This document shows positions 35,086-52,035 of a stretch of DNA of 64,000 nucleotides, piece after piece. The translations under genes and the position numbers were made by a program. The DNA is from Alitta virens (lineage: Eukaryota; Annelida; Polychaeta; Phyllodocida; Nereididae), in assembly GCA_932294295.1 (NCBI GenBank), contig OW028574.1, forward strand, positions 14,084,215 to 14,148,214, given 5' to 3'. Below the pieces are notes generated by a model, which saw only the letters and a list, made by a program, of their open reading frames with translations, did no database searches and was not told where the DNA came from. How positions within the stretch are numbered: position 1 is the stretch's first letter; every line of letters begins with the position of its first letter.

Positions 35086-35100
35086 TGCGCGTCTAAATGA

Positions 35101-35107: not shown

Positions 35108-35146
35108 GAATGAAATATAGGAAAGTAAATTAGTTACAGGGTCGGA

Positions 35147-35401: not shown

Positions 35402-35733
35402 AAAAAATTTTTTTTCAAAAAAAAAATTTTCAAACAAATTTTTTTCATCTACTTCTTTCTTGTAGCAAAAATCAAGCCATAGCCCTATTAGAAACGGCTA
35501 ATGAAGAACAAGTAGCTAACACAGTAATCATCATATATAATATTACACTCAACTCCTCAGTATTATCACCTCAAACCCAAAAATTGCTTTCCAAACATAA
35601 AAAGTTAATTTCAAAAATAACCAATAAAAAGAATTCCGATAAGAAGAATTATTCTATCATTAGAAATAATTCATCCAAGATTCACAACATTTTGCTATCA
35701 GCTAAAAAGATCCTGATTAAAGTCTTAAAATGA
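35398..35733 (+). CDS. Conserved small Polinton protein, function unknown
   Basis: 111 residues, Lys/Asn-rich. The first 17 residues come from a run of A and T (aaaaaaattttttttc), so the true start may be later. The core (residues 25-105: ALLETA, IIYNI, LSKHKKLI, then KK..I..N and a hydrophobic tail) matches the layout of small basic proteins I associate with animal Polintons, which usually sit between the packaging ATPase and the integrase. No function is known. Overlaps both neighbours by 4 nt (ATGA at each end), suggesting reinitiation or a shared transcript. Confidence 0.65.
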   Translation: MKKIFFQKKNFQTNFFHLLLSCSKNQAIALLETANEEQVANTVIIIYNITLNSSVLSPQTQKLLSKHKKLISKITNKKNSDKKNYSIIRNNSSKIHNILLSAKKILIKVLK

Positions 35734-36347
35734 AGAAATACGTTTTAATTCCATTCACCAACAGTAGTGCAACAGAAGCACCTGCAGCACCTGCGGTACC
35801 TGCAGCACCTGCAGTACCCGCAGTAGCAACTGCAGCTGCTACAACAACAACTGCAGTACCCGCAGTATCAACTGCACCTGCTACAACAACTGCAGTACCC
35901 GCAGTACCCGCAGTACCTGCAGCTGCAGTACCTGCAGTACCTGCAGTACCTGCAGCAGCAGCTGCAGCAACTCCTAAACTAAGTTCTGATAGTATTCTGT
36001 CATCAATCCCTCAGAATATCAAATATAAAGCTCGAGCTATACTACAACATATTGAGGATAATGACAAAAATATAACTTGGAATAAAAAGGGTGAGGTAAT
36101 AATTAATCAAAATCTTATACCAAACAGTCACATCATTGATTTGATAAAATGCATGCTTTACCGTTATAAAAACGTACAACCAGAAGGTTTACATCAGTTT
36201 AGAGTAGCACTGCGAGATAGCAATATACCTCAAACTCTAGTTCAGAATGGCTCAGGGATAATTCGGAAACAAAGTTCACAGAGAAAACCACCACCCGGTG
36301 TTCCTATTACTGAAAAAAAAGAGAGATGGATTTGGCACAAGATGTGA
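35730..36347 (+). CDS. Conserved Polinton protein with Ala/Pro/Val repeat N-terminus
   Basis: 205 residues. Residues about 10-85 are a low-complexity APAVPAVPAA array built from 9-bp DNA units (tgcagtacc and variants). Residues about 88-180 form a folded-looking domain with W..KGE, a short helical block around HIIDLIKCMLYRYKN, then PEGLHQFRVALRD and NIPQ. This layout is shared by a protein of unknown role found in many animal Polintons. It overlaps the integrase start by 22 nt. The repeat tract is prone to slippage, so its length probably varies between copies. Confidence 0.65.
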   Translation: MKKYVLIPFTNSSATEAPAAPAVPAAPAVPAVATAAATTTTAVPAVSTAPATTTAVPAVPAVPAAAVPAVPAVPAAAAAATPKLSSDSILSSIPQNIKYKARAILQHIEDNDKNITWNKKGEVIINQNLIPNSHIIDLIKCMLYRYKNVQPEGLHQFRVALRDSNIPQTLVQNGSGIIRKQSSQRKPPPGVPITEKKERWIWHKM

Positions 36348-37438
36348 GAAACTATCTTCTGGAAAAATTTCAAGATTTTAACTTTCCTGGAGCCTATAGT
36401 AGCGTTGATAAATTCTACAGAGCTATAAAAAAAGATAATAAACATATCTTAACCAGAAAACAAATCAAAGAATTTCTACAAAGTCGAGAGTATTACACAT
36501 TACTTAGACAAGTGAATACTAACTTTGTTAGAAATCGAGTTGTAACTCCATATATTGGTTATCAAATAGACTTGGATACAGCTCATATACCGCAGTACGA
36601 TAAAGATAATTCCGGATATATCTACATCTTAGCTGGGATTGATTGCTTCAGTAAAGTTGCTCATACAGTAGCTTTGAAAAGTTTGAAATCGCAAGAATTT
36701 GTTCCAGCTTTAAAAAGCTTGTTGTTAAAATTAGGGACTATAACCAACTGTCGTTCTGATAGAGGTCCCGAGTTCAGATCCCGTGTGACACAGAATTTAT
36801 TCAAGAAACTGAGAATAAATCATTTTTTTACTAATAATACAGAAACAAAAGCCAACATAGTTGAGAGATTTTTCAAGACTTTAAAAAAGTTATTGTTTAC
36901 CTATATGCTTGCTCAAAATACACACAAATGGGTTGATCAGTTGCAGAAAGCAACAAATTCCTACAATCACTCTTATCATAGCAGTATTAAACAGACTCCT
37001 GCTTCCGTTACAGTATCGGATGAATACAAAATATGGAAGCAGTTATATGAAACGGAGCAACCTGATAAGATACAAACCGATTTTCGTTTTAATATACACG
37101 ATATGGTTAGGATAAGTGTAGTCAGACACCCATTCATGAGAGCATTTGACGAATCGTGGACAAGAGAACATTTCATCATTGCTGATAGAATTATGAGAGA
37201 TATCAAACCAATCTATGTAGTAAAAGACTTGAAAAACGAAGTCTTAAACGGGCATTTCCAAGAAAACGAGCTGCAGAAAGTGGTAGTTGATGATAATCAG
37301 ACTTACCTCATAGAAAAAATACTTAAAAGGAAACGAGATAAAGTGTTGGTTAAATGGTTAGGTTGGCCTAAGAAACACTCGACATGGATGAAAAAAAGTG
37401 AAATAGAACATCTCCAAAAAGCAACACTAGTGACCTAG
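36326..37438 (+). CDS. Polinton integrase (rve) with C-terminal chromodomain
   Basis: 370 residues. The N-terminal region resembles the zinc-less helical part of Polinton integrases. The catalytic core has the retrovirus-type D,D,E triad: D82 in QIDLD, D145 in RSDRGPEF and E180 in NIVERFF, with the last two 35 residues apart. A chromodomain (about 326-360: LIEKIL, VLVKWLGWP, STWM) ends the protein, as in known Polinton and chromovirus integrases, and may guide integration to marked chromatin. It would join the terminal repeats to host DNA and make the 6-bp duplication. Starts within the preceding gene (22-nt overlap). Confidence 0.95.
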   Translation: MDLAQDVRNYLLEKFQDFNFPGAYSSVDKFYRAIKKDNKHILTRKQIKEFLQSREYYTLLRQVNTNFVRNRVVTPYIGYQIDLDTAHIPQYDKDNSGYIYILAGIDCFSKVAHTVALKSLKSQEFVPALKSLLLKLGTITNCRSDRGPEFRSRVTQNLFKKLRINHFFTNNTETKANIVERFFKTLKKLLFTYMLAQNTHKWVDQLQKATNSYNHSYHSSIKQTPASVTVSDEYKIWKQLYETEQPDKIQTDFRFNIHDMVRISVVRHPFMRAFDESWTREHFIIADRIMRDIKPIYVVKDLKNEVLNGHFQENELQKVVVDDNQTYLIEKILKRKRDKVLVKWLGWPKKHSTWMKKSEIEHLQKATLVT

Positions 37439-37650
37439 TCTTGTGACCTAGTCTTGTGACCTAGTCTTGTGACCTAGGCTTGTGTCCTAGTCTTGTGTCC
37501 TAGTCTTGTGACCTAGTCTTGTGGCCTGTGGCCTAGTCTTGTGACCTGTGACCTAGTCTTGTGACCTAGTCTTGTGACCTAGTTTTGTGACCTAGTTTTA
37601 TTACCTAGTTTTGTGACTTAGTTTTGTGACCTAGTTTTGTGACCTAGACT
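37434..37650. repeat. 13-bp minisatellite (gacctagtcttgt)n
   Basis: About 15 copies of a 13-bp unit start at the integrase stop codon, with variants (gtcctagtc, gtggcctgt, cctagtttt). Many units carry cctag. There is no open frame across it. It separates the replication/integration block from the capsid block and may be spacer or regulatory. Confidence 0.9.
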
Positions 37651-37757
37651 AAGAACTGGTACATCCAGGTCTCCAACCCTGGGGTTCCAACCCAGGGCTG
37701 CAACCCTGGGGTGCACTCTTGCGTACAAGTACCCGGTAGTATATTACACAGTGGTGA
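37651..37757. other. Short spacer with CCCTGGG palindromes
   Basis: aaccctggggttccaacccagggctgcaaccctgggg (about 37676-37711) contains near-perfect inverted arms of ccctggg/cccaggg. A TATA-like tagtatatta follows at about 37736, 20 bp before the capsid-block ATG. Confidence 0.5.
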
Positions 37758-38201
37758 ATGAGAAAAAGAACATTCTTAATCATGACATCGTTTGTGGTGT
37801 ATGCTTCTAGTACAGATAGTAAAAATATTTTCACTGACAATAATCCTAATGATTTTATAGTGCAACTAGATAGAAATATCAACCTCTGCGCGGAATCTTA
37901 TGTGGAATTGCTAGACATTAGATGTAGAATTAACGAAAGAACCAAAGAAGAGATATATATTTTTAGCGATGTGTGTCAGGAATCTTTTCTATACGGAAAA
38001 TTGTCACCAGTCTTGCGAGTTTTTCAATTACCAGGGTTGAAGGTTTCTCACACAGAATTCGTACGCCCGATTAAATTGAAAACTATTCAAGGACAACTCA
38101 ATCGCTTCAGAATATATATAAAACCCAGAGAAACCACATCACCACCACTATCACTTTCGGAACTGAACGTAACACTTCGTTTTCACAATGTCAGTTATTA
38201 A
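37758..38201 (+). CDS. Minor capsid (penton-like) protein
   Basis: 147 residues; a second ATG at 37782 would give 139 and begins just before the conserved FVVYAS block, so the start is uncertain. The pattern F-x-V-x-L...L...YVELLDI followed by a central Y/F block and regular beta-strand spacing fits the single jelly-roll penton protein of Polintons and adintoviruses. It lies immediately before the basic core protein, major capsid and protease genes, the usual structural cluster order. It overlaps the next ORF by 14 nt. Confidence 0.75.
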   Translation: MRKRTFLIMTSFVVYASSTDSKNIFTDNNPNDFIVQLDRNINLCAESYVELLDIRCRINERTKEEIYIFSDVCQESFLYGKLSPVLRVFQLPGLKVSHTEFVRPIKLKTIQGQLNRFRIYIKPRETTSPPLSLSELNVTLRFHNVSY

Positions 38202-38481
38202 TGATTACGATAGTTGGAAAAAGCATTACGCTGCAATGATTGATGGAAAAATTTTACCAAATCAAAAAATATTTGTGGTAAACGATTCAACTACTCAATC
38301 GGGCAAAGGTTTGCAAGTTGTAACTGCAGCCGCACAGAAAGATAACATGTCACGCTCTATCATTAACAAAGCTATAAAATCGAGTAAAAAGAAAAAATCG
38401 CCTCAGTCTAGATCTAAACACCGGAGCAAGAACACTAAAACTAGACAGACTAAGAAAAAGGTTGTAAGAAGGAGACGATAA
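38188..38481 (+). CDS. Basic core / membrane-active-like virion protein
   Basis: 97 residues. A short N-terminal domain contains DSWKKHYAAMIDG and QSGKGL, followed by a tail (about 55-97) of SKKKKSP, RSKHRSKN and VVRRRR, extremely rich in Lys, Arg and Ser. The position between penton and major capsid and the basic tail match the DNA-condensing or pX/pVI-like proteins of adintoviruses. The SGKG motif resembles the cleavage-site style of adenain-like proteases, but cleavage is inference. Only 1 nt separates its stop from the major capsid ATG. Confidence 0.65.
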   Translation: MSVINDYDSWKKHYAAMIDGKILPNQKIFVVNDSTTQSGKGLQVVTAAAQKDNMSRSIINKAIKSSKKKKSPQSRSKHRSKNTKTRQTKKKVVRRRR

Positions 38482-38482
38482 A

Positions 38483-39802
38483 ATGCAAGCTCACGATGAT
38501 TCTCTCAACCTTTTTTGCGTACAACCTACCAACAAAGCAATATCGCAATCTCAAATGATAGAACATCTTCCAATCTCACAACTATCCAGCGGATGTGTGG
38601 AATTTAGTGTAACTTCACAAAATTTTATCGACTTTTCCCGTTCACACATTCAACTTAGGTGTAAAATTGTTATAGGGGAGAATGATCCTATCAAATTTGT
38701 TGAATCATTGGAGAAATATGATGCTACCGGTGATGTAGCACCTACAAATTGTTTAATCGCATCAATGTTTCAGAAAGTTGACCTCAGTTTACAACATCAA
38801 TCGATATCTAATGATATCCCTACTTACTGCTATCCTTATAAATATATGCTGGATACTCTTTTAACGAGTAAAGTAGACGAACAACTGGGAATATTATTCA
38901 CCAAAGATCTAAGTACTGCGATAAATACTTGTAGTAATTTCAAGGCAGTAGCAGGAACTGATAATGCCGTTACGGATGGGAACCCTGCATTGAAAAAAAG
39001 AACAAAGTTTGTTAACCAGGGGCAAGAGTTTGTTATGACTGGATCTATTGGAGTGGATTTCATGAAACAGAAAAGGTTATTATTACACAACACCAACATT
39101 GGATTGAAATTTTGGCCTTCTACACCCGAATTTTCCTTGCTCTCTTCCGAATTAACACAAAAATTTAATATTAAAATATTGGATGCTAAGCTAGTGTTAT
39201 GTCATGTTACCTTAGACCCAGCAGTTGGTGTTGCTATCAGTGATGCCCTAAAACTTAAATCAGCTCAATATCCTTATATCAATTCAAAAATGCGAACTCA
39301 CACTATAGCTAAAGGTAGTCAAGTGGCTACGATTAATGATTTATTCGGAACCGAATGCCCAGAACAATTAATCGTTTGTATGGCTAAATCTGCAGCTGTC
39401 AGCGGTTCATTCCAACACAATCCATATTTTTTTAGTCACTTTAACATCAGTGAGATAGGATTGTATTTAAACAACATTTCTCTCCCAGCTAAACCACTTC
39501 AAGTTAAATTCGGTGATACAGCTTACCAATCTCATTATTTAGAGGCTTGGCAGAGACTTCACAGACTGAACCCAGACTCTATCATTTCTTTCGAAGATTT
39601 CCATAGAGGATACACAATATTCTGCTTCGATCTAGGGAATAGAGAAAATTTTGAAGAGTTGCTTCCAATTTCGCACACAGGAACAACCAAACTCGAACTT
39701 AGATTTTCAAAAGCTCTGGAAGACTCAATAGTAGTCTTTCTGTATGGGAAATTTAAAGGCTTGTTGAGTATCGATGCTGCACGAAACATTACTACACAAT
39801 GA
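38483..39802 (+). CDS. Major capsid protein (double jelly-roll type)
   Basis: 439 residues, the second largest product of the element. The N-terminal VEFSVTSQNFIDFSRSHI strand and the later PLQVKFGDT and SLLSSELTQKFNIKI blocks match the Polinton/adintovirus major capsid family. Position is also diagnostic: directly after the basic core protein and overlapping the protease start by 4 nt (ATGA). It would form the icosahedral shell of a virion. The frame is intact. The double jelly-roll fold is family knowledge, not something seen directly. Confidence 0.88.
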   Translation: MQAHDDSLNLFCVQPTNKAISQSQMIEHLPISQLSSGCVEFSVTSQNFIDFSRSHIQLRCKIVIGENDPIKFVESLEKYDATGDVAPTNCLIASMFQKVDLSLQHQSISNDIPTYCYPYKYMLDTLLTSKVDEQLGILFTKDLSTAINTCSNFKAVAGTDNAVTDGNPALKKRTKFVNQGQEFVMTGSIGVDFMKQKRLLLHNTNIGLKFWPSTPEFSLLSSELTQKFNIKILDAKLVLCHVTLDPAVGVAISDALKLKSAQYPYINSKMRTHTIAKGSQVATINDLFGTECPEQLIVCMAKSAAVSGSFQHNPYFFSHFNISEIGLYLNNISLPAKPLQVKFGDTAYQSHYLEAWQRLHRLNPDSIISFEDFHRGYTIFCFDLGNRENFEELLPISHTGTTKLELRFSKALEDSIVVFLYGKFKGLLSIDAARNITTQ

Positions 39803-40233
39803 ACACTTCGGAAATAACTAACATTTTACGTAGACACTATCCAGAGTTTGGTGGGGTTTACCCTGCTAACCATATTCATTTAATCAAAGATAACACTATA
39901 GCTATATTGAATACCGATGAAGCCAATAGTGCAGGCACTCATTGGGTTGCTGTATTTGTGAATAATCATACTTGCGAATTTTTTGATTCTTTGGGTGAAA
40001 ACCCGGAAAACTATCATTCTTATTGGCACAAGTTTTTAATTAAAAAGTGCGGTAGGTACGTATACAATGATATCGCTCTTCAAAACCTTAAATCCGATGA
40101 CTGCGGTAAATTTTGTATATTCTATACTATTTTGCGTAGTCAGGGAATAGAATTTTCTTCTATCGTTCGTTTGTTGAAAAATGTGAATCTTGATAGTTTT
40201 ATATATTCTCTAATGTATGAGAGCGTTATCTGA
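39799..40233 (+). CDS. Adenain-like cysteine protease (maturation protease)
   Basis: 144 residues with the catalytic set of the adenovirus protease/Ulp1 fold: H48 in GTHWVAVF, D63 in EFFDSLG, Q95 in IALQN (oxyanion hole) and C102 in DDCGKFC. The length is short compared with adenovirus protease but normal for Polintons. It would process capsid and core precursors during virion assembly. The ATG overlaps the major capsid stop by 4 nt (ATGA). An aataaa lies about 50 nt past the stop (about 40285). Confidence 0.95.
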   Translation: MNTSEITNILRRHYPEFGGVYPANHIHLIKDNTIAILNTDEANSAGTHWVAVFVNNHTCEFFDSLGENPENYHSYWHKFLIKKCGRYVYNDIALQNLKSDDCGKFCIFYTILRSQGIEFSSIVRLLKNVNLDSFIYSLMYESVI

Positions 40234-40317
40234 CCTCTGTCGCGGTATTAAGTTACCCATAAGTCAAAATAACGCACTGAAAAAATAAAACCGCAAAAAA
40301 AATTTCAATTTTCAAAA

Positions 40318-40501
40318 GTTATGATGTCACTGGCAGGATTGAGAAATCTGTAAACATCATGACACCAAAAAAATAAAATAAAAAAGTTATGATGTCACTG
40401 GCAGGATTGAGAAATCTGTAAACATCATAACACCAAAAAAAATAAAATAAAAAAAGTTATGATGTCACTGGCAGGATTGAGAAATCTGTAAACATCATAA
40501 C
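40318..40501. repeat. Three tandem hairpin repeats (68-70 bp period)
   Basis: Three near-identical units begin at 40318, 40386 and 40456. Each holds gttatgatgt and its exact reverse complement acatcataac about 26 nt apart; unit 1 has one mismatch in the second arm. Units are separated by A-rich linkers with aataaa. They lie between the protease gene (plus) and the RING gene (minus), in the convergent 3' zone. Possible roles are 3'-end formation, RNA structure or replication control. Confidence 0.9.
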
Positions 40502-40629
40502 ACCAAAAAATAATATTTAGGACTAGTGACACTGTACTTTGGGGAACCTCCACGTGGTCAGTGTTGGATACAACTGTTTATCACTTTTTAAAAAGTAATA
40601 AATAGTTGGAACTAATACCCCAAAACTAG

Positions 40630-41244
40630 TTAAAATCTCGAAAATTCATCAGCTTCCCACTCAACACTCTCCAATCTACCATTAACAATTCTAACCATTG
40701 CATCAGAGATGGTTTGAAATGAGACTCTGCTGTAATCCACCACCATCTCATCAATTGATGAGTCATAATAAATTGAAGGTCCTACCTGAAAGTCTTCCGT
40801 TTCAAAAATATCCTGTGGTGATCCAACACTTACCTGAGGATCTCCACCCTCCCCAGCTTCCAGCTGATCCACCTCTAATACCACCATTTCCCTCTCAATT
40901 CCTATCTCCGAATTCTCCTCAGCTTCCAGCATTGAATTCTCCTCCGAATTCTCCTCCGAATTCTCCTCCGAATTCTCCTCCGCTTCCAGCATTGGATTCT
41001 CCTCCGCTTCCAGCATTGGATTCTCCTGCGCTTCCAGCATTGGATTCTCCTCCAAATTCTCATGTAAAAATTTGCTTAATTCTTCAAAAAGCCACTCTTT
41101 ACGACAGTGTGGACATTTCAAAGCACCATAAATGACGAAATCGAAATTATTAATGTATGCTGAACAACATGAGTGGTGAATTATGGCATTACAGCAGAAC
41201 AATTGCTTACCACCATCTACCAAACATATTACACACACATCCAT
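40630..41244 (-). CDS. RING-finger protein with acidic repeat tail
   Basis: 204 residues. A RING-like N-terminus has C4-x2-C7, C17/C18, H23/H24, C26/C27 and C44-x2-C47 (CPHC), the cross-brace pattern of E3 ubiquitin ligases. It is followed by a helix (residues 48-60) and an array of EENPMLEAEENSE-type units (about 65-110), strongly acidic. The last 90 residues are also acidic and unrecognised. Viral RING proteins often degrade host defence or cell-death proteins, so a counter-defence role is plausible but inferred. It is the first gene of the accessory module. Repeat units are built from 9- and 24-bp DNA repeats, so copy number may drift. Confidence 0.8.
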   Translation of the reverse strand: MDVCVICLVDGGKQLFCCNAIIHHSCCSAYINNFDFVIYGALKCPHCRKEWLFEELSKFLHENLEENPMLEAQENPMLEAEENPMLEAEENSEENSEENSEENSMLEAEENSEIGIEREMVVLEVDQLEAGEGGDPQVSVGSPQDIFETEDFQVGPSIYYDSSIDEMVVDYSRVSFQTISDAMVRIVNGRLESVEWEADEFSRF

Positions 41245-41989
41245 GTTAGTGATCTCTTTCCTGTAGTGGACTAATCACAACTGAAGTGAAATTTGAAAAA
41301 ATCCCTAGTTTGCATAATTTAAAAAAATGCAGTGATGTGTGCATGTGTGCAATGGGGTATGGATCAATAAATTGAACCAAAACCCTTTCATTTCCTAAAA
41401 TATAACCCATGTGGGTGCATTACATTCATTAAGTGCATTCAAAAAATTGCTGAGGATATAACCCATGTGGGTGCATTACATTCATTAAGTGCATTCAAAA
41501 AATTGCTGAGGTGAGGAGATACAGCTATTATGTTTAAACAGTAAACTTTGAAAGAGTTTTTTCAGATTAAAAGTTTGATAGGCATCCATTGAGGCTATAA
41601 ACCTATTACCCAACTCCTTTATCCCAAATCACAGTTTGGTCTAGGTTTGGTATGCCACCATAGCATAATTGACCTTATCCCAGATTAGATGTAAGACTGA
41701 TAGGGCTGACAGCTGTTTGGTGTCTGTAGGTTCAAACTCATTAAGGATTAAGGTATCTTGTCTTATCATTTCATATTGCTCCAATCCCACCTACTGTGTA
41801 ATCACTCTAATGATCAAGGATGTATTGATCCTAGAAGGAGGTCTTTGTTGTGTTCATTAATCAGAAGCATAATGTGCTTTGATGTAGAGTTAATTTATCT
41901 TTATTACTATTAATTAGTGATATGACTGAAGAATTCACTGCTAAATCCAAGTTCCACCCCATTCTCTAGTTTTCATTGGAGAGGAGCAC
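41245..41989. other. Spacer between RING gene and membrane glycoprotein gene
   Basis: No gene. It contains a perfect tandem duplication of a 56-bp unit (41401-41511). The promoters of the divergent RING gene and of the plus-strand membrane gene should lie here, but no convincing TATA box is visible. Confidence 0.5.
41401..41511. repeat. Perfect 56-bp tandem duplication
   Basis: tataacccatgtgggtgcat... is repeated exactly once more from 41457. Each copy contains the palindromic cccatgtggg. Confidence 0.95.
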
Positions 41990-42647
41990 ATGATTTTTTT
42001 CACTATGTTTGGATTGTTTGAATTGTTATTGTTTTTTGGTTCGTTTGAGTTTGTCCAAACTCAGGTTTTGTGTTTGGAGGGGAATTACTGTATCTGTGAA
42101 GATGCAGTAATGAAGTGTGATAATGTTGTGCCCTTTCTACCTCTGGAAGGAAGGACTGAAACTGTGTTGGTTGCACACTTTAGTAATGTGCAAGATGGGT
42201 ATGGAGTCAAGACTTCGAATTTGGAAGGATATCTGCATGTGGAACTTTATGGTGTGTGTGGTATCTCTCGGCTGAGGAAGTGGAGTTATGGGTGTAATGA
42301 CGAATCCGGTGTTGGAACAACTGTTGTTATGGATGATGTGGATGATGTGGCTGAAGACAAAACGGATGATGATGATGATGATGATGATGATGAAATGTTT
42401 GATGTGGAGGTTGAAGGGTGGTTCGGATTTTTCTCTGTGTCTTTGGCTGGATTGTTGACGTTGAATGTAAGCGTTATGTGCGGTTTGCTGAAGACATGGA
42501 GAAGAATCAACCAATTCAGAAGACAAGCTCCACCACCACCCTGTTCCGTTTCCATGATATTATGGCTACAGAAAATCATACACCGGGTGATAATGTTCAT
42601 GTGCCGCTGTCAAGCTTGCAAGAGAAGGGCTCCCCCTTCTCTAGAAA
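41990..42647 (+). CDS. Membrane glycoprotein-like protein, exon 1
   Basis: 219 codons plus one base. It has a hydrophobic signal-like N-terminus (residues 1-24), then a Cys-rich segment (C28, C34, C36, C43, C90, C102) with LEGNYCICEDAVMKC, resembling a small disulfide-bonded cap. An Asp run (about 126-134), a membrane span (about 144-168) and a second hydrophobic stretch (188-206) with CRCQAC follow. A consensus donor (gaaa|gtaagt) at 42648 pairs with an acceptor at 43201-43202 and keeps the frame (658 + 206 = 864 nt, divisible by 3). If unspliced the frame stops after 223 residues. Surface placement and possible receptor role are inference; the family is not recognised. Confidence 0.7.
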
Positions 42648-43202
42648 GTAAGTCTTTTTAAATTTAAATTTTTATTATTAACCGAACGTTTATGCGTCTT
42701 ACTGTATAGCACTACCCACGCGTTAATGTTTACATTATTAGATCTAAAAAAAGCATCGCTTCGCGCATGCGCGATGCGGTATCTTGCAGCTTCTATTTTC
42801 CCCCGTAGTAAAAAGAGTGGCGCTGCTGACGCTGCTGACACTGCTGGCGCTGCTGGCTCCGCTGGCTCCGCTGGCGCTGCTGGGGAGATCCTAAAAATGA
42901 CGTCACCCGGGAGGGAATACCCTTGACGCTGCGCGCTACAACGCATGCGCGATGCGGTATCTTGAAGCTTCTATTATCCTCCGCAACGTAAAGAGTGGCG
43001 CTGTTGACGCTGCTGGCGCTGCTGGCGCTGCTGGCGCTGCTGGCGCTGCTGGCGCTGCTGGCTCCGCTGGGGAGATCCTAAAAATGACGTCATACCAGCG
43101 GGGAATATCCCAGCAGGGAATCCTCGGATCGTTGTAAAGAGTAAATTAGTTTTAATAATAGGGGAAAAATGCTGATATTAAGTTTATTATTTTTTATTTC
43201 AG
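42648..43202 (+). other. Putative intron with duplicated promoter-like block
   Basis: gtaagt...tttttatttcag boundaries. Inside are two copies of a roughly 165-bp block at a 178-bp period (42765 and 42943). Each has gcatgcgcgatgcggtatcttg, a gctgctggc array and a perfect CRE palindrome TGACGTCA (42898-42905 and 43085-43092). A perfect NRF1-type palindrome cgcgcatgcgcg lies at 42762-42773. The block could act as an internal promoter or enhancer. Short open frames in it are Ala/Gly repeats, not convincing genes. Confidence 0.6.
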
Positions 43203-43408
43203 TTCCACGCGGATTGAGACTCCCGAGAACCCTGCAGGACTTGGTGGGTGCGCCATCCCCGTCTCCTACAGTGAGTGGCCCGGTGACGAGGTCCATGACA
43301 GCCGCTGCTGCTGCTGCTGCCGCTACCGCTGCCACCACCGCTGCCGCCGCAGCCGCCGCTGCTGAGACGCCTCGTGGTCGCCCCCAAGATGTAGAGAGCG
43401 GGCTTTAA
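43203..43408 (+). CDS. Membrane glycoprotein-like protein, exon 2
   Basis: Adds 68 residues in frame to exon 1 at 41990-42647. The segment starts PRGLRLPRTLQDLVG, then a Ser/Pro stretch, TRSMT and a long Ala run encoded by gctgcc repeats, ending PRGRPQDVESGL. Topology places it in the cytoplasm if exon 1 is a type I protein. The Ala run is low complexity and likely variable. Without RNA data the exon is supported by splice-site quality and exact phase match. Confidence 0.6.
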
Positions 43409-44068
43409 TTATTATATATTAAAGATGATTGAATGATATTATGACTTGATTTTTTTTTTTTCAAAAGACACTCTGCCAGTTTGTTATGAAAAAAATGTTA
43501 GCCGTGAACAGCTATTAAACACTTCTCTCACATTCGCCCAACATCACGGGAAGATCGCAGAGCACGGTTGAGCATAATTTGGAATATAGACAGTTGAAAT
43601 CTGTCCTTTTTTTTAAATTTTTTTAATTTTTAAATTTTTTTGTGACTCGTTTTCTCTCCCTCTTTATGATGTGGATGGTTAAATCTAACCCGGGTCGGAT
43701 TTTTCCCTTCCACAGTGGGTGAATATGAAATGAAGCGTATTGTACACAATTAAGCGACTCAGCCATTTATGAGTGGTGCTGTCACACCGAGATGGCGGAG
43801 ATTTAGATCCTTCAACCATCTCCTTACGAAAGGAAGTTGACACCGAGTCACATTTTTTAATACAAATCGAGCCAAATATATATATATATATATTTCAGTA
43901 GCCAAGCTAAAAGCTACAAGCTAAAAGCTACAAGCTAAAAGCTACAAGCTAAAAGCTACAAGCTAAAAGCTACAAACTAAAAGCTACAAACTAAAAGCTA
44001 CAAGCTAAAAGCTACAAGCTAAAAGCTACAAGCTAAAAGCTACAAGCTAAAAGCTACAAGCTAGCTAG
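43409..44068. other. Spacer with minisatellite in accessory module
   Basis: No gene. It contains A/T-rich sequence, a (TA)n tract (about 43877-43893) and a 14-bp minisatellite (43904-44068). The 3' end of the spliced membrane gene and of the convergent CARD operon should fall here. Confidence 0.55.
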
Positions 44069-44070
44069 CT
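43904..44070. repeat. 14-bp minisatellite (aagctaaaagctac)n
   Basis: About 11 copies of a 14-bp unit with agct palindromes, ending in agctagctagctagc. Confidence 0.95.
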
Positions 44071-44401
44071 AGCCTATTCTTAAATACATCTGTTTCAAGA
44101 GTCTGTATTTATCAGACATTTGCATAATCCAACAAGAATTTGGATTAGTTTGAATAGTAGTGGAAGCATAATTTTGAATGTTACACTCCAAAATATTGAG
44201 TCTATGGGTTTGGATGAAATTATGACATTGACAGAGATTGGTTTGGTGGTTATTGGATTCGGTATGACTTAATACCGAGTTCAGAATGCAAACAAAAAGA
44301 TTCACAAGGATTTTTGGATTAGGTTTTGTCTCAAATAATTCTTCATTTAACAAAGCAATGTTCCAATCCAAATCATCACTCGTAGTACTCATAGTACTCA
44401 T
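44069..44401 (-). CDS. Unknown 110-residue protein downstream of the CARD gene
   Basis: I do not recognise it. It starts MSTMSTTSDDLDW, followed by a Leu/Ile/Asn-rich middle (LVNLFVCILNSVLSH) that could be helical, and a Cys-containing C-terminus. Its ATG (44401-44399) overlaps the CARD stop (TGA 44400-44398) in the classic ATGA arrangement. That suggests coupled translation or a shared transcript, and makes a chance frame less likely. It might work with the CARD protein. Codon use is AT-rich like its neighbours. Confidence 0.5.
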   Translation of the reverse strand: MSTMSTTSDDLDWNIALLNEELFETKPNPKILVNLFVCILNSVLSHTESNNHQTNLCQCHNFIQTHRLNILECNIQNYASTTIQTNPNSCWIMQMSDKYRLLKQMYLRIG

Positions 44402-44694
44402 ATCGATACTTTTGTGAATTCGTCTTCGAGATTGGTTAAGAGATTAGCTAGATCGGTTCTTTTTGTTTCCTTCAATGCGTTAAGGAAGGATGCGAATGCA
44501 GCGGGTCCTCGCATCTGTAGCAGAAATAAAAGGGAGTAATTTCGTTTCGATGGTGCTTCTTCTAATATTTCAGTTACCATTTGCTGATTGAGAATTCCGT
44601 CTTGATAAAGAAATGAAAGCACTTCTGTACAAGGTACTTCTCTAACCAAAACTACAAAGTTCCTACGCAAAGCATCACGATCGCATCTGAGCAT
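44398..44694 (-). CDS. CARD (caspase recruitment domain) protein
   Basis: 98 residues that are nearly all one death-fold domain (about 5-85). The signature is that of CARDs: an opening helix DALRRNFVVLV, then EVLSFLYQDGILNQ, a short EAPSKRNYSLLFLL helix, RGPAAFASFLNALKET and a closing Leu-rich helix. The order and the LYQ-x-GIL and RGP-x-AF-x-x-FL motifs match the caspase-2/RAIDD-like CARD branch. A stand-alone CARD could act as a decoy, blocking host apoptosome or inflammasome-type assembly by CARD-CARD binding, as other viral death-fold decoys do; this role is inference. No caspase domain is present. A capture from a host gene is likely. Confidence 0.88.
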   Translation of the reverse strand: MLRCDRDALRRNFVVLVREVPCTEVLSFLYQDGILNQQMVTEILEEAPSKRNYSLLFLLQMRGPAAFASFLNALKETKRTDLANLLTNLEDEFTKVSI

Positions 44695-45416
44695 TTTGAG
44701 GAAATGTTTCGAACTAAAAATATTTTATTTAGATAGAGCGCGTGGGGTCGCGCTTGAGCAGGTTTGGGCACGCGCGCTCACGTGCGGTCACGCTTGAGCA
44801 CGCTTAGGCACGCTTTTGGGTGCGCGCGCACGCTTGGACACGTGCGTCGAATGTGGACGCTAAATAATAACAAAAATGAGTCTTTTCAACCGTGCGTCGA
44901 ATGCAGGCTTTAAAATTCCTGCTAAATAACACCAAAAATGAGTCTTTTCAACTGTGCGTCGAATGCGGGAACTAAAATCCCTGCTAAATAATACCAAAAA
45001 AAAATGAGTAATTGTCTTTTTCAACCGTATGTTCAACTCTGTATTCAACCATCCAGGTAAACCAACCATGCAGTAAACCAACCATAAATTGTTTTATGCA
45101 CCTGTTTAAAATCGTAGCTTCTGGGGTTTCCCCCTGATAGGGTTTCTGTTAACCCTCCTAGTCGTGGTTTCATTGCAATTTACTCTAAGTCAACTTTCGT
45201 AGCTTCTGAATATATGGATGGGGTTTAATTGGGTGTGAAACAATCGTGGTATCATTGCATTAAGATGAACTCGCGTATAGTTAAGCGTACTTTAAACAAT
45301 AAACTTTGAAGTTGAGTAGTGTCACCTGGAAATGGAATATAAGGTCCAGAATTTTTTCTAAATAGCATCACAATCTTCATAGACAGCAATAAGCATTTAC
45401 AGAACCACACTCTGAG
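44695..45416. other. Spacer with GC-rich block and imperfect tandem repeats
   Basis: No convincing gene. 44741-44845 is unusually GC-rich with cacgtg E-boxes and repeated cacgcttgagcacgc motifs, just upstream of the minus-strand CARD gene, so it may be its promoter. A TAAATAAAA-like element lies at about 44721-44733. 44841-45030 holds three imperfect 50-60-bp repeats (cgtgcgtcgaatg...aaaaatgagtctttt). A tataag element at 45338-45343 could serve the next plus-strand gene. Confidence 0.55.
44841..45030. repeat. Three imperfect 50-60-bp tandem repeats
   Basis: Each unit has a gtgcgtcgaatg block, a cctgctaaataa block and an a-run with aaaaatgagtctttt. Confidence 0.8.
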
Positions 45417-45518
45417 ATGAATTCTACTTGCAACTGCCCAGCAACTGATGTTAAACTTTTATACCTGGGGTATGCAATACTGGCAGGGATCATGCTAGTA
45501 TTAAGCATTCAACTATTC
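45417..45518 (+). CDS. Small spliced membrane protein, exon 1
   Basis: 34 codons with N-terminal Cys residues (STCNCPATD) and one strong membrane span (about residues 14-34, LLYLGYAILAGIMLVLS). It ends in phase 0 at a strong donor (ttc|gtaagt). Unspliced, it stops four codons later. Together with the exons at 45685-45770 and 45874-46150 it gives an uninterrupted frame of 154 residues (102 + 86 + 277 nt). A tataag element lies 75 bp upstream. The family is not recognised. Confidence 0.65.
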
Positions 45519-45684
45519 GTAAGTGGAATTTAAACAATAATTCACCTCTCTAATTTTATGAATTTATATATAAATAGTTATGTTATAACGAATTAGTGGA
45601 ATTTAACGGTGATATAAATTTATAGATAACTCGAATATCATTGCAATTTACGGTTTTATAATGATATTTTTTCCTAATTTTTAG

Positions 45685-45770
45685 GGTGCAGCCAGGACAA
45701 AGAAAATTGTTCACTTTTGCGCTGAGAGGTTGTCAGCATTTACTCAAAATGCATCGACGGAAACGGAGCA
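45685..45770 (+). CDS. Small spliced membrane protein, exon 2
   Basis: 86 nt between acceptor ttttttcctaatttttag and donor gca|gtaagttt. It encodes GAARTKKIVHFCAERLSAF and a Thr/Glu stretch. The basic start just after the exon 1 membrane span fits the positive-inside rule, putting this part in the cytoplasm. Phase matches both neighbours. Confidence 0.6.
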
Positions 45771-45873
45771 GTAAGTTTATTTTCACAAGTATTCTGGATA
45801 ATTCTGTGTGTATTTATAACTATTACTCAATCATATAGAAAAATATCTCAAAAATAATCCTTTTTCTTTTCAG

Positions 45874-46150
45874 AAACCGAGACTTGGAAGGGAGCTATAC
45901 CGGAGATGATTCCGTAAGGGGTAATACCCCGGTATTTACCATCCCAACCCTCCCAATCTCCCCATCCAACCCACACCGATGGAGTTTCCCAACTCTTCTC
46001 ACTCCCGGTCCCAGATCCCCGGCTCGCTCCCCATCGGCTCACTCCCCATCGGCTCACTCCCCATCTCGTCGCTCCTCTACCCCACCCGCTATCGCCTACG
46101 TCCACGCCACCCAGACAAGAACCAAACGATACGCCGAATCGTCTTTATAA
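45874..46150 (+). CDS. Small spliced membrane protein, exon 3
   Basis: After acceptor tttttcttttcag the frame runs 91 codons to TAA. The sequence is a disordered Ser/Pro tail with SPARSPSAHSPSAHSPSRRS repeats (from repeated ccatcggctcactcc DNA), ending TRTKRYAESSL. SP-rich tails are often phosphorylated. aataaa follows at 46208-46213. The gene converges on the DNA polymerase gene 92 bp away. Confidence 0.6.
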
Positions 46151-46160
46151 ATATTGTTAA

Positions 46161-46236
46161 TTTTATTTTATTCTTATTGCGAAAATTTGTGTTTTTTTAA
46201 TATTTATAATAAATTTTTTTTAATATTTATAATAAA
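46161..46236. terminator. Overlapping convergent polyadenylation signals
   Basis: Plus-strand aataaa at 46208-46213 and 46231-46236 serve the spliced membrane gene. Minus-strand aataaa (46161-46166 and 46166-46171 read in reverse) lies about 75 nt past the polymerase stop. The two transcripts would overlap by a few tens of bases. Confidence 0.55.
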
Positions 46237-46241
46237 TTTTT

Positions 46242-49200
46242 TTACCTGAAATACTTCGTTCGTATCGGTTCTAATATTATATCTAAGGGTTTGGTTGAGA
46301 TACCATCAGCTAATACTTCCCTTTTAGGATAAAAATAAGCGAATCCGGCTCTATTCTGTTGGTACGTGAAAATAGTATTACTTTTACTGATAAATCCTAC
46401 ATTGGTAGAGCTACGACTTTCCTTAGTCTCCAAAACGCTTTTAAATATTTCTAGAGGGTTTTTGACTCTGTTTTTGGATATACCTTTAGAACTAAACTTA
46501 CAATGGTCTTTGTCGGCTACGATATAGGTTTTAGAACAGAGTCCATAGAATATCTCACCTTCGTATTCACGTTTAAATAACCCGGGGCAACGATTATCAT
46601 ATTTAGTGTGTTCTGGGCAACAAGTTCTTGGAAACCAATGAGTTTCAGCATCAACGTCTCTAACCGAACAATATCCATTTAACTTATGTTTATATTCATC
46701 TAAGAGTTCTGGTTTAATCACATCTTGCAATGTTTCCCCTGCTATTGAAAAGTAATTGCTGTCCGTATCCATCTGAAGCATTTGAAACTTATCTCTAGGA
46801 ACGTATTTACAGAGAAAATCGTAATAGAATTCTAACATTCTTAACTTGGCATATTGCAGAATGAAAAAACCTATTTGAATTGGTAAATCTAACTTAATCT
46901 TGTTTTTTTGAGATTCGATTTCATAAAATTCGTAATCATCGGAAAGTTGGGTCATGGATTTGAATCCTTTCTCGTTAGCTTTGAGGCAAGCCTCATTCTC
47001 ACCTTCTACATATCTAACATCGGTCTGCTTCAGTTTATTAAGGATAGTTGATCCATAGGCGGAATTTCCTATAAGTTTTGATAAATCAGCAATTATTGAT
47101 AAATCTGGATCTCTATCTCCCGCTCTCCTGGCCTCTGTCACATCGCTAACAAATTCCTGAAAGCACTTCATTCTGTTATATTCTATGACTTGGTGAATTT
47201 TGGATACGACTAAACCGTGCTCTAAATACCATTTCAACAAAGGTGTAGCAAATAGCATTTTCCTAGCTTTCATTCCTCCTACCAACAGTCTTCTAGGTTT
47301 TGTATTCATTCCTGAATCACGAGCAAAATTTTGCATATGTTCACCTATTACTTCGAATGGAATATCGGTAGTGCAAAATATCGGTGACATCTCACTAAAA
47401 TATTCGTATGGTGTCAAGTTATCCGGCTGTTTGAAACCTTGTTCCCATTTTTCGGGAACTGCGATGTCTACTTCTACCATACCGAATAGTTCATCCCGTT
47501 TCACCGCTTCTAAAATTTCCTTTTCTGTCAGAGTTTTCTTATGTTTTTTGAAAAACTTGGGTCTTTGGTTTTCTACAAATTTTTGCAAGTCCGGAGTATC
47601 TTTAATCATTTTCAGAAATTTGCATTCCCATATTTCCTCAACTTCGTATCCTAACTTTTTGTAGTAGTTATTCCTATCTTGTCTTCTTTTCTGCGCGAGT
47701 AACCCTTTTTTCTTTTCTTTCTCAGATAAATTTTTATTCATTAGAGGACAATCACCACCGTGATGGTGGAAATAGCAACCATCGTATTGATATATTTTAG
47801 TTATATTATTTGAACAAGATACTCCATCAGCAAAGAAACGACCATCTCTCTTTTCCTTATTTCCATTTCGTTTATGCCAAATCTTTAGATTTCTTTTATG
47901 ACTTAAATAATCCATCCAATAGAACATGTTATCATATCTATCCCTCACCACGGGTTTAAATTCATCTTTCGCGTGTCTTCTAATGAATGAACCCACTGGA
48001 AATTCTTTGCTGAAGGCGTATAGATATAACGCATTAGCGTCATATCCTATTATTCTCTTCACCCGATTATTACCACCCCGAATAAATGTCTTATCTCTCT
48101 GAGCTTGTCTGTGAAAAATAATAGAAGCTCCTCCAATTATATTCTGTAAATAGGAGAAGTAAAGGTCCGAATTTTTTTGGTCAATCAGAGAAAAATAGGC
48201 ACCATTTTTCTCTGCACTCTGAAAAACTAATTGCCTAGCAATTCCTGGGACACTAATGGAGCTTTTGAAAATATCTATTCGCTTAACCTTATAAAAGTCT
48301 TGCAGCTTCATAACTGCTTTAACGAATGGTGTCACATCTAAATTATTATACCATATAAGAAAATCTTTAAAACAACTCATATTTTCGCTCAACCAAACTG
48401 TTTTCAACCATTGGTAATTTTCAAATGTCTCCAGGACATTACATTGCTTTAGGTTAGAGTAGAAGGCTTCGTACGGAGGTAATTCTGGATAATCTAACTT
48501 GGAGGGATCATCAAAAAATTCGTATGGAAAATATCCTTTCTGTTCTTGAATTTTAAAAGCTTTTAAAAAGCTAGAATAACTCGTGCCCGGTGCTAAGTAG
48601 TTTATCACATCTAAGAATCTAAAACTCTCATTAGCAAGACAGGAGTATGAACTGTTTTTCTTGACTATAAACTTGCGTTCTGAATTGTGCAATTCTAGAC
48701 ATCTAGCTATTTCTCTTTTGATTAAATTTATGTCATACTTTGCAGAGTTAAAACCTAAAACTGGAATCTGAGTGTAATAATGTTCGAATGCGTCAATCAT
48801 GTTTTGGATTTTTGTACGCATTATGGCATTGAAGCTTTCTTTCTCATCTACTTCAGTATTCCAAGTATTCAATTGAGATTCCAGTTCCTGCATTACAAAA
48901 CTAAGTTTTTCTTGAACAAGCGCTTGCGCGGTTGATTGAATTCTAGTCATATATGCGAGCATTGCCTTCACAAGCGTCTCGCGATCTTGTTCGACAATAC
49001 AGTGAGCTTCTTCAAAGTCTGGGACATTACTACAAATACTAACGCTAATTGGAATGTGCTCTGCTGTAATCATTGTATTTTCTACCGAATCATTCTCTAT
49101 TTTTTTCAAATATGCCTCGAAATCGTAGACTATAAAATATTCGTAAAATCGTTCATCATTGGAGACATCTATTCCAAATTCTTCTAACTGCTCAAAAATA

Positions 49201-51629
49201 TTTCGTTTCATATCGTAAAAACCACCCGGAAATTGATATTTCGTTGCTAATGTACACGTTTGGCTGTGTCTTTTACATATGAAGAAAGTTTTGAAGTGTT
49301 TTTCACAGTTTGAGCATTGATATTTACTACAATATCTATTAATATCAGTGATATATGATAAGTGATGCTGGTAAAGATTCAAATTCATACTGTTGACGTA
49401 TCTATGACCTGATTTAAATATGGGGTGTGCAGTTTCATCTTCGTGTAAAGAAAATATGTTGACGTTTAACTGAAAAAATTTCTCAAAATCTGGAATTAAC
49501 TGCAGGTCAACTCCTCCTTCCAAATCTTGCTCGCAAGCGTTTGCGAATTCTTGGTAATATTTGTGAACTTTCTCTTCGAAATGTTCAGTCTTTTTATATA
49601 GATCTCTGTGTTTGTGGAATGCTAAGCACCTGAATAGACAAAGGTTGTCTTCATATTTCTTTTTACTCTTAAAACTATGTATAAGGGATATAATAGATTT
49701 ACTATTTCTGATATATTTGGGAAGTTCACCCGATCCTAAAGGGAACCCTGTTGAAGTAATGTAGAATCTAACATTTGTTATAAGAACTAATTTCCACTTC
49801 GTGGAAGGCCTCTCTTTAGTAATATGTGCTGTAACGTCTATCTCAGTCAGTTGATCTCTGAGCTTCTCTAAATCTGCTCTATTTGAAATGCTAATGGGTA
49901 GATCAAATAAGGGGTCATTAGAATAGGCTTTGAAATAACGGTATTTTCCAGTCTCGATATGTTGTAAAATGGATCCAAAAGATAGATTTAACTTAAAGGA
50001 TTGGCTTTGGTCATCGAATATTTCGTTAGCAAAACCCATAAGGTCTTCAATGCTGAAATCTTCAACTACTGGATAATTATAAAAGCTTTGCGGTTGCCCT
50101 AATTCGTGGTTATCATAAATGAATGAGTGGTATCTATTGTAAAATTCTTGCAATTTCTCATCTTCTAATGATACTATTTGAGCTCGACCTCTACCTCGTT
50201 GGAAATGAGAATCTCTTACATGAATATTTAATGAGTGTCTATCCTGAAATTCCTCTAAACATCGTCTACATCTAATTCTATGATTTTTTTTGTGATAACT
50301 TTTATGGAGACTCAGGCTCTTTTCAGAGTTAAAAATCCTCCCGCAAACTTCGCATAGCACATCTCGTGACTGAACGGTTGACTGAACAGGTGACTGAACA
50401 GGTGACTGAATGGTTGACTGAATGGTTGACTGAACACATGGCTGAACAATTGCGGTTTGATTTGTTTGTATGCTATTACAACTTCGTTTGCATGGTTGCA
50501 CAGTGTTGTCAGTGTTGTGTGAATCAGTAAGTGTCCTTTTTCGAGTTTTTTTACAAATATGTTTTCCAAAACTTTTTTCTGATTTGAATATGGAGTGACA
50601 TGAGTGACATTTAATTTCGCACGAGTGAGAATCATGAGCTAGGCTGTTGGTGAAAATTTTCTTACATTTTTGACAGTCAAACACTCCCTCACAAACTTTC
50701 ATGTGTTCGGTTAATGAGGGTTTTTTCTTAAAAGTTTTGCAACAATTTGGACACGAAAAAGTCTGCTGTGGTACCTGCGGTACCTGCGGTACCTGCGGTA
50801 CCTGCGGTACCTGCGGTACCTGCAGACTTTGCAGTAGTTGGAGATCAGTTGGGTTCTTTGGATTATTTTTTTGACTAATAAATTTGTGTTTTGTTCTCTT
50901 AGGAAGTTGACATTTAAGTTCGTGTCTTTGCTTTGCATAGAAACTTTGAAATTGTTTGTTACAGTGCTGACATTTCATCATTTCCTGACATTTATGTACA
51001 CCGAATAAAGAAACTGAAGTAAATTGTGCATGACATTGTACGCATTTTTTGAATCCTGTACATTTCTTTTGATGGGTGTTCCTCTTAAAGCTAGTGGTGA
51101 AAGATTTACCACAAACATTGCAGTTATGCGGTGGTGGTTTTACTGGTTGTACTGGTTGTACTGGTTGATTGAATTCAGGAAAAGGATCATGAGTGACTGT
51201 TTGAATTGGAATATTACCTTGGCAATTGCTTTGATGTAGTTCTTGAAAGACTCTATTGGTGAATTGTTTGAAACATTTTTGACAGTAAAGATGGTTGTTT
51301 AACTGCTGAAGTCTGCTTTGAATTTGTGCATCCCCAATCAGATTGTTTCTGTGTGCAAACTGTATTAAATCTTGTTCATTTGTGAAATTTTGAATCATAT
51401 GTGTGAAATCGTCATATGCGGTTACCAGATAATTGCTACTGCTAGTGAATTGAGAAAGTCTATCTTTAACTTGAGGGTCTTGGGTTAGATCGTTTCTATG
51501 AGCGAATAGCATTAAATCGTGCGAGTTTGTGAAATTTTGAAGCATTTGTTTAAAATCATTGTACACGCTGAGACCATTGTTACTTTGAAAATATTCATTG
51601 ATCAAAGCGTCATCTCTGCTCTCTGCCAT
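46242..51629 (-). CDS. Protein-primed DNA polymerase B with zinc fingers
   Basis: 1795 residues from the ATG at 51629 (strong Kozak; an upstream extension would need a TTG start). It opens with two copies of a 45-50-residue module (QNFTN..DL..FAHRN.L, about 30-60 and 80-110), then about eight C2H2-type fingers (about 115-475) interrupted by PVQPVQPV, VPQVPQ and IQSTIQSPV repeats. A Cys/His segment (DNLCLFRCLAFH ... HHLSYI, about 661-760) looks like a decayed or divergent OTU-type peptidase. Exonuclease motifs are YDFEAY (835) and GFNSAKYD (959); polymerase motifs are YDANALYLY (A, 1196), NSAYG (B, 1522) and MDTDS (C, 1620). A Vsr-like insert (YDGCYFHHHG ... IWECKF, about 1280-1338) sits between A and B. 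It replicates the element by protein priming. Confidence 0.95.
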   Translation of the reverse strand: MAESRDDALINEYFQSNNGLSVYNDFKQMLQNFTNSHDLMLFAHRNDLTQDPQVKDRLSQFTSSSNYLVTAYDDFTHMIQNFTNEQDLIQFAHRNNLIGDAQIQSRLQQLNNHLYCQKCFKQFTNRVFQELHQSNCQGNIPIQTVTHDPFPEFNQPVQPVQPVKPPPHNCNVCGKSFTTSFKRNTHQKKCTGFKKCVQCHAQFTSVSLFGVHKCQEMMKCQHCNKQFQSFYAKQRHELKCQLPKRTKHKFISQKNNPKNPTDLQLLQSLQVPQVPQVPQVPQVPQVPQQTFSCPNCCKTFKKKPSLTEHMKVCEGVFDCQKCKKIFTNSLAHDSHSCEIKCHSCHSIFKSEKSFGKHICKKTRKRTLTDSHNTDNTVQPCKRSCNSIQTNQTAIVQPCVQSTIQSTIQSPVQSPVQSTVQSRDVLCEVCGRIFNSEKSLSLHKSYHKKNHRIRCRRCLEEFQDRHSLNIHVRDSHFQRGRGRAQIVSLEDEKLQEFYNRYHSFIYDNHELGQPQSFYNYPVVEDFSIEDLMGFANEIFDDQSQSFKLNLSFGSILQHIETGKYRYFKAYSNDPLFDLPISISNRADLEKLRDQLTEIDVTAHITKERPSTKWKLVLITNVRFYITSTGFPLGSGELPKYIRNSKSIISLIHSFKSKKKYEDNLCLFRCLAFHKHRDLYKKTEHFEEKVHKYYQEFANACEQDLEGGVDLQLIPDFEKFFQLNVNIFSLHEDETAHPIFKSGHRYVNSMNLNLYQHHLSYITDINRYCSKYQCSNCEKHFKTFFICKRHSQTCTLATKYQFPGGFYDMKRNIFEQLEEFGIDVSNDERFYEYFIVYDFEAYLKKIENDSVENTMITAEHIPISVSICSNVPDFEEAHCIVEQDRETLVKAMLAYMTRIQSTAQALVQEKLSFVMQELESQLNTWNTEVDEKESFNAIMRTKIQNMIDAFEHYYTQIPVLGFNSAKYDINLIKREIARCLELHNSERKFIVKKNSSYSCLANESFRFLDVINYLAPGTSYSSFLKAFKIQEQKGYFPYEFFDDPSKLDYPELPPYEAFYSNLKQCNVLETFENYQWLKTVWLSENMSCFKDFLIWYNNLDVTPFVKAVMKLQDFYKVKRIDIFKSSISVPGIARQLVFQSAEKNGAYFSLIDQKNSDLYFSYLQNIIGGASIIFHRQAQRDKTFIRGGNNRVKRIIGYDANALYLYAFSKEFPVGSFIRRHAKDEFKPVVRDRYDNMFYWMDYLSHKRNLKIWHKRNGNKEKRDGRFFADGVSCSNNITKIYQYDGCYFHHHGGDCPLMNKNLSEKEKKKGLLAQKRRQDRNNYYKKLGYEVEEIWECKFLKMIKDTPDLQKFVENQRPKFFKKHKKTLTEKEILEAVKRDELFGMVEVDIAVPEKWEQGFKQPDNLTPYEYFSEMSPIFCTTDIPFEVIGEHMQNFARDSGMNTKPRRLLVGGMKARKMLFATPLLKWYLEHGLVVSKIHQVIEYNRMKCFQEFVSDVTEARRAGDRDPDLSIIADLSKLIGNSAYGSTILNKLKQTDVRYVEGENEACLKANEKGFKSMTQLSDDYEFYEIESQKNKIKLDLPIQIGFFILQYAKLRMLEFYYDFLCKYVPRDKFQMLQMDTDSNYFSIAGETLQDVIKPELLDEYKHKLNGYCSVRDVDAETHWFPRTCCPEHTKYDNRCPGLFKREYEGEIFYGLCSKTYIVADKDHCKFSSKGISKNRVKNPLEIFKSVLETKESRSSTNVGFISKSNTIFTYQQNRAGFAYFYPKREVLADGISTKPLDIILEPIRTKYFR

Positions 51630-51659
51630 TTCAATGATGAGGAACAAGTGTACCAATCG

Positions 51660-51667
51660 CTTTTATG
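51660..51667 (-). promoter_or_regulatory. TATA-like element of the DNA polymerase gene
   Basis: cataaaag on the minus strand, 31 bp before the ATG at 51629. This gives a very short leader and supports starting there and not at the upstream TTG. Confidence 0.5.
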
Positions 51668-51808
51668 ATGGTGATTTCAATGCTGGCTTGCTGGCCTGCT
51701 GGCCTGCTGGCCCACTACAGGATGGTGAGTTATTTTTAGAAAATGACTTCATCGCAGCAGGGTGCAATGGATTTTCTATTTTTAGAATTGGGGGTTTCCT
51801 ATGACGTG
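51668..51808. other. Right subterminal region
   Basis: It holds ggcctgctggcctgctggcc repeats (about 51688-51712) and, inverted, the ttatttttagaaaatgac and ctatttttagaattgggggtttcc motifs shared with the left subterminal region. Confidence 0.6.
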
Positions 51809-52029
51809 ATGACTTTGACAGGTGTGCGATTTATTACCTACCCTTCCTTCACATAAGCTACCCTAGCTTCACCGGATGCATTGGAGTGTGAAATTTAATT
51901 ACTACCCTACTTCATCCTGTTCTCCAAAAGACAATGGGTTTCCCTTTGATGTTGCTACCTTACTACCTCCGTTTCACCAAAAGTCAAGTGGATTCCTTTG
52001 ACGTCTGTAGAGCACCATCTTATACTACT
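51809..52029 (-). repeat. Right terminal inverted repeat of the Polinton
   Basis: 221 bp, inverted copy of 32701-32921 with two mismatches. Ends cttatactact. Confidence 0.95.
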
Positions 52030-52035
52030 GAAGGC
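52030..52035. repeat. Right target-site duplication (gaaggc)
   Basis: Identical to 32695-32700. Confidence 0.95.

Follow-up and report, generated by a model that had tools for sequence, protein, structure and literature searches.

A stretch of 64,000 nucleotides from the genome of the annelid Alitta virens (contig OW028574.1, positions 14,084,215 to 14,148,214; hereafter the window) contains a Polinton that carries a gene for a complete, stand-alone caspase recruitment domain (CARD). We found that this gene recurs across the genome beside the DNA polymerase B (PolB) gene of related elements and is under purifying selection. It is also present in a second, very different Polinton lineage, and most likely has passed between the two. 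These features suggest that the protein may act as a decoy in host cell-death signalling.

A stand-alone CARD gene carried by a Polinton

The gene (positions 44398-44694, minus strand) encodes 98 amino acids. The original prediction, made from the DNA letters alone, held that the whole product is a CARD with nothing attached, and the Pfam search bore this out. PF00619 matched with an E value of 3.8e-10 and 40.1 bits, against a cut-off of 23.9, and residues 6-88 covered positions 1-84 of the 85 in the profile; no second domain is attached. A six-helix bundle was also obtained with AlphaFold2 (predicted local distance difference test score (pLDDT) 80.8, predicted template modelling score 0.71), with helices at residues 3-18, 22-31, 37-45, 48-62, 64-76 and 80-96. 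A chance open reading frame (ORF) or a false domain call is ruled out by the Pfam score, the predicted fold and the many genomic copies.

When the 98-residue sequence was searched against proteins of known structure (PDB), the CARD of RAIDD was the top match (9.8e-7). A profile of 14 CARD sequences ranked RAIDD (1.1e-10) before Dronc (6.2e-8), caspase-9 (1.7e-5) and CED-3 (4.8e-5), and neither MAVS nor RIG-I was among its matches at E ≤ 0.01. In RAIDD and the initiator caspases the CARD is joined to a death domain or a protease, whereas the Polinton CARD stands alone. The predicted RAIDD/caspase-2 type holds as a description of the nearest sequences rather than as an assignment to a family: the Polinton CARDs make up a clade of their own (see below), and in a fold search with the model the CARDs of Apaf-1 and caspase-9 ranked first, tied. 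Likewise, the LYQ-x-GIL motif named in that prediction is present in the window CARD, but one Polinton subfamily has LFEDGIL instead.

The surrounding element is a Polinton, as had been proposed, with terminal inverted repeats, a 6-bp target-site duplication, an integrase, a protease and an ATPase-like ORF. The alternative that a Polinton had landed on a host CARD exon was rejected, as the gene lies inside the terminal repeats and recurs beside PolB.

We searched the Alitta virens genome with the CARD and scored the best 150 matches from 220 first-look candidates, the window copy included. By hand count, 139 of them are full-length or almost full-length relative to their subfamily protein; internal stops were found in 4, and 146 are stop-free, so intact copies of the gene exist elsewhere in the genome. 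The matches comprised subfamily A, the window type (73 rows, 69 complete or nearly so by hand count), subfamilies B (27 rows, 62-65% identical to the window CARD), C (19 rows, 50-53%) and D (24 rows, 56-58%); the remaining 7 rows are decayed or partial. An isolated capture in a single copy is ruled out by these matches. Twenty A copies, all with a 100% identical CARD, were compared with the window with 1.5-kb flanks included, and the best aligned piece of each, about 2.3-3.3 kb long, had 2-31 mismatches, plus gaps. Being nearly identical, those copies are young.

Nine stretches taken from A', B and C elements all have the CARD immediately downstream of PolB and in the same orientation. PolB identity to that of the window was 92% in one of them (L033), 65-72% in the B copies (L023-L026) and 55-56% in two others (L027, L028), and the PolB of L029 and L034 aligned in several pieces. 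The linkage was also examined genome-wide with the last 200 PolB residues, using the best 127 of 152 matches and leaving out lower-scoring fragments. A listed CARD was found within 3 kb downstream in 116 of the 127 (A 74/80, B 26/26, C 16/21). Among PolB frames of at least 1,700 residues the proportion was 65 of 66 (A 42/43, B 17/17, C 6/6), and the lone exception had one 7.0 kb away.

The ratio of nonsynonymous to synonymous substitution rates (dN/dS) was calculated by the method of Nei and Gojobori (NG86) over 90 codons. Two A' copies compared with A gave 0.25-0.28, and B compared with B' gave 0.29. Across the divide between A/A' and B/B' the ratio was 0.16-0.18, with dS already at 1.4-1.8. 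Silent sites were near or past saturation in comparisons involving C and D. These results indicated that the Polinton CARD is under purifying selection across subfamilies; speaking against it are the higher ratios seen where changes were few, 0.60 between A' copies and 0.53 and 0.80 within C.

Origin of the family and a second Polinton lineage

A phylogeny with host CARDs had been suggested in the original prediction. In our tree of 42 rows, 23 Polinton-type CARDs split from 19 presumed host CARDs with a branch support of 100/99. The former were ten Polinton copies and 13 database proteins (P0001-P0013) whose genomic context is not established; the truncated P0014 was excluded, P0013 was trimmed by its first 47 residues and further copies of the same subfamilies were left unused. 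The host rows were PF00619 matches, mostly on short stretches, with no visible Polinton relative nearby (L036, L037 and L040 unused). Among these rows, which include no vertebrate RAIDD or caspase-2 and no host gene identified as a caspase, the Polinton CARDs are one clade apart from the sampled host CARDs and are nested in no host CARD group sampled. A single capture from a host is enough to account for the data, and no donor was found.

In total, 14 database proteins with the source labels ena, jgi and lgn matched the family. Two of them (P0008 and P0009) carry the JGI name caspase 2, yet consist of a CARD alone (100 and 103 amino acids), and are probably misnamed Polinton-type genes. Since P0005, P0006 and P0008-P0013 had no close match among the ten Polinton copies, the family probably extends beyond the subfamilies found in this genome, and perhaps beyond Alitta virens. 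Scans of IMG/VR with two CARD alignments gave 20 and 52 pattern matches, none confirmed; the capsid-like ORF of the window gave no pattern match there, and that of the D element gave 6, none confirmed. Prokaryote genome contigs yielded 31 matches, again with none confirmed, and tblastn of phage records yielded no match. These misses say little, because such collections probably hold few animal Polintons.

Several host ORFs with CARDs were seen along the way. One (L021 658-1773, minus strand) joins an N-terminal CARD (61.8 bits) to a Bcl-2 domain (77.6 bits) in a single open frame. Another (L022 1-1863, plus strand) has a ZU5-like domain, which at 20.5 bits falls just short of the cut-off (21), and after it a CARD (56.8 bits), an order that resembles FIIND-CARD proteins such as CARD8. 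The window itself has a host ORF of 648 amino acids (3672-5618, minus strand) whose CARD match is weak, at 14.3 bits against a cut-off of 23.9.

Subfamily D belongs to a different type of Polinton. Its CARD is located about 1.0-1.2 kb inside one end of the element, taken as the point where copies stop aligning (L030, L031, L032, L039), and the remaining part of the element (L059) encodes a PolB and an integrase recognized by Pfam (PF03175, 5.1e-29; rve, 9.2e-16). Compared with the window element, identities were 30-40% for the integrase, 25% for the capsid-like protein and 36-38% for the ATPase-like protein, and the available parts of the two PolB proteins gave no significant alignment (best blastp E 0.18). 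The D CARD shares 56-61% identity with the A, B and C CARDs. Within the window lineage, CARD and PolB diverged at about equal pace between A and C (53% and 55-56% identity), so a CARD identity of 58% between such distant elements is out of line. Because of this mismatch, with the capsid-like protein at 25%, the integrase at 30-40%, the ATPase at 38% and PolB at none, the CARD was most likely passed between Polinton lineages.

A search with the D-type capsid scored the best 99 copies, from the D type and its sister lineages, out of 1,410 candidates. A CARD lay 7.8-12.8 kb from the D-type capsid in 24 of 25 rows. In the sister lineages (65-70% capsid identity), 0 of 74 rows had a D-like CARD within 20 kb, among the 27 D-like CARDs listed; these counts fit a gain of the CARD by D. 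A 4.4-kb piece of one sister element, possibly short of the element end, contained no CARD in a scan with a local hidden Markov model (best E 0.02), and a D copy used as control scored 1.7e-45. No internal stop was present in 95 of the best 99 capsid-like copies, which points to a recent, heavy Polinton load.

The CARD tree alone is no proof of a transfer. A clade of A, B and C with D outside was not rejected by the approximately unbiased test (p-AU 0.359, or 0.345 without two long host rows), although this clade turned up in no more than 0% and 17% of the bootstrap trees. Furthermore, the count of 0 in 74 is limited to the CARD matches listed (the best 150), which makes a gain by D tentative.

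Other genes of the element

The Polinton spans 19,329 bp (32701-52029). Its terminal inverted repeats of 221 nucleotides (32701-32921, plus strand; 51809-52029, minus strand) pair with 2 mismatches and are flanked by the target-site duplication GAAGGC (32695-32700 and 52030-52035, plus strand). On the plus strand are a packaging-ATPase-like ORF (34328-34975; Pox_A32 E 0.0013, below the Pfam cut-off), a retroviral-type integrase with a chromodomain (36326-37438; rve 34.6 bits, cut-off 32.6; Chromo 27.5, cut-off 25.1), a major-capsid-like ORF of 439 amino acids (38483-39802) and, adjoining it, an adenain/Ulp1-type protease (39799-40233; Peptidase_C48 27.4 bits, cut-off 20.7; Peptidase_C5 24.8, cut-off 21.3). 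The capsid-like ORF had no Pfam match above the cut-off, nor had its D-element equivalent, to which it aligns over 434 positions. The PolB-like ORF (46242-51629, minus strand) lies upstream of the CARD and encodes 1795 amino acids with zinc-finger-like motifs at the N-terminus. DTDS and KxxxNSxYG motifs were recognized in it by eye; no polymerase family matched up to E 0.1 in Pfam and none in NCBIfam, in contrast to the D-type PolB with its clear PF03175 match. In its terminal repeats, 6-bp duplication, integrase, adenain-type protease and PolB-like, ATPase-like and capsid-like ORFs, the element is like Polintons/Mavericks and adintoviruses.

Downstream of the CARD is a partner ORF of 110 amino acids (44069-44401, minus strand), whose ATG overlaps the CARD stop by 4 nucleotides (ATGA). 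The same overlap was found in L033, L034 and the C copy L028, and in the B copies (L023-L026) the next ORF starts 15 nucleotides past the CARD stop. The A and B versions of the partner are homologous (36-39% identity). This ORF is weakly constrained (dN/dS 0.36-0.80) and has only two relatives in a similarity search; its model is all-helical with low confidence (pLDDT 62.9). No relative was recognisable by similarity in C, and in three D copies examined no ORF of at least 60 amino acids started within 700 nucleotides past the CARD stop. ATGA overlaps of 4 nucleotides occur in three adjacent gene pairs of the window Polinton (35730-35733, 39799-39802 and 44398-44401). In an animal element, such bacterial-operon-like overlaps hint at termination-reinitiation or polycistronic expression.

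Two further accessory ORFs were noted. One (40630-41244, minus strand) is RING-like, as judged by eye from its cysteines; zf-RING_2 matched at E 0.57, which is below the cut-off, and there are relatives in L025, L026, L028, L029 and L034. The other is membrane-protein-like (41990-42661, plus strand; signal peptide and transmembrane segment by eye), with relatives in L025-L028, L034 and L035. By eye, ORFs of these two kinds share the CARD's accessory region in both Polinton types (L059 690-1082, L031 7896-8375 and the window). Near the Polinton, the window also contains two adjacent CD225 (IFITM/dispanin-like) genes (58455-58778 and 59907-60392).

Proposed function and meaning of the Polinton CARD

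We think it somewhat probable that the Polinton CARD is a dominant-negative decoy against an apoptosome-like platform or an initiator caspase, keeping the cell alive. This best explains why selection maintains a bare CARD in an element that still has genes for replication and capsid-like proteins. The protein would be made during an infection-like phase and, having a normal six-helix fold, would bind a host CARD of the CED-4/Apaf-1, RAIDD or caspase-2/9 type. By capping the host CARD platform or co-assembling with it, the decoy may block the recruitment or activation of caspases, and cell death would then be delayed while the element replicates and is packaged. Judged by sequence, initiator-caspase or RAIDD-type platforms are the first candidate targets. 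A decoy role had been suggested in the original prediction as well, and is plausible.

The closest precedent for a CARD in a viral or virus-like DNA genome is the ranavirus vCARD, a CARD-motif protein encoded by ORF 64R of frog virus 3. A vCARD deletion mutant is described as showing more apoptosis, greater interferon sensitivity and reduced pathogenesis (PMC4974522), and the gene has been listed as a putative evasion gene (PMC3205390). The likeness is one of description, and vCARD belongs to a vertebrate ranavirus rather than an integrating Polinton. Mammalian CARD-only proteins (ICEBERG/CARD18 and kin) are host genes aimed at caspase-1, whereas by sequence the Polinton CARD comes closest to RAIDD and the apoptotic initiator caspases.

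A decoy could also be aimed at an RLR (RIG-I-like receptor)-MAVS-like or a ZU5/UPA-CARD (inflammasome-like) pathway instead of the apoptosome. We consider this unlikely, given that RAIDD and initiator caspases lead the sequence search, with no MAVS or RIG-I in the range considered, and that the Polinton CARDs are nested in no sampled host CARD group. Free adaptor CARDs can nucleate assemblies; this, the gene's place within the element and the selection acting on it would also suit a pro-death or signalling adaptor that seeds filaments and turns a host pathway on, for example for particle release, or a role in host defence. Early cell death would rarely benefit a virus-like element that carries genes for replication and capsid-like proteins, and the one virus CARD with mutant data considered here, vCARD, is described as limiting apoptosis (PMC4974522), making such an adaptor improbable.

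In A, in B and in a single C copy the downstream ORF is linked by an ATGA overlap or a 15-nucleotide gap, which raises the idea that the CARD has been repurposed away from host death, for instance to bind its partner's product or the particle. We regard this as quite improbable: the partner is the less constrained of the two, and the CARD is kept where the partner is not recognisable (C) or no such ORF follows (the three D copies). Finally, the CARD might be a passive passenger, a functionless host exon copied by a successful element, and the youth and near identity of the A copies alone would keep ORFs open. A dead passenger is rejected by the CARD dN/dS well under 1 between subfamilies; together with the same site beside PolB despite 55-72% PolB identity, and the presence of a CARD in a second Polinton lineage, this leaves the passenger very hard to credit.

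We found no description of a Polinton CARD in the literature searched, which covered few subscription papers, and the main text of an adintovirus/meldvirus survey mentions neither CARD nor caspase (PMC11071296). In agreement with these searches, the Polinton CARD is apparently undescribed, as the original prediction had supposed, but stand-alone viral CARDs as such were already known from ranaviruses.

Returning to the proposed decoy, we suggest tentatively that CARDs could be a standing anti-death module of invertebrate Polintons, captured once from a host, long kept, and moving between lineages with very different polymerases. This would imply an infectious phase, present or past, in which the host apoptosome has to be suppressed. 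It has long been asked whether Polintons are transposons or are viruses that go through a real infectious cycle. Polinton particles have been described as not yet observed (PMC8097293). A host-derived cell-death module under selection in two very different Polinton lineages would answer the need of a virus and not of a mere transposon. The CARD may thus offer a handle on the question of the infectious cycle, through one small protein and one defined host pathway, and may serve as a natural probe for CARD signalling in annelids.
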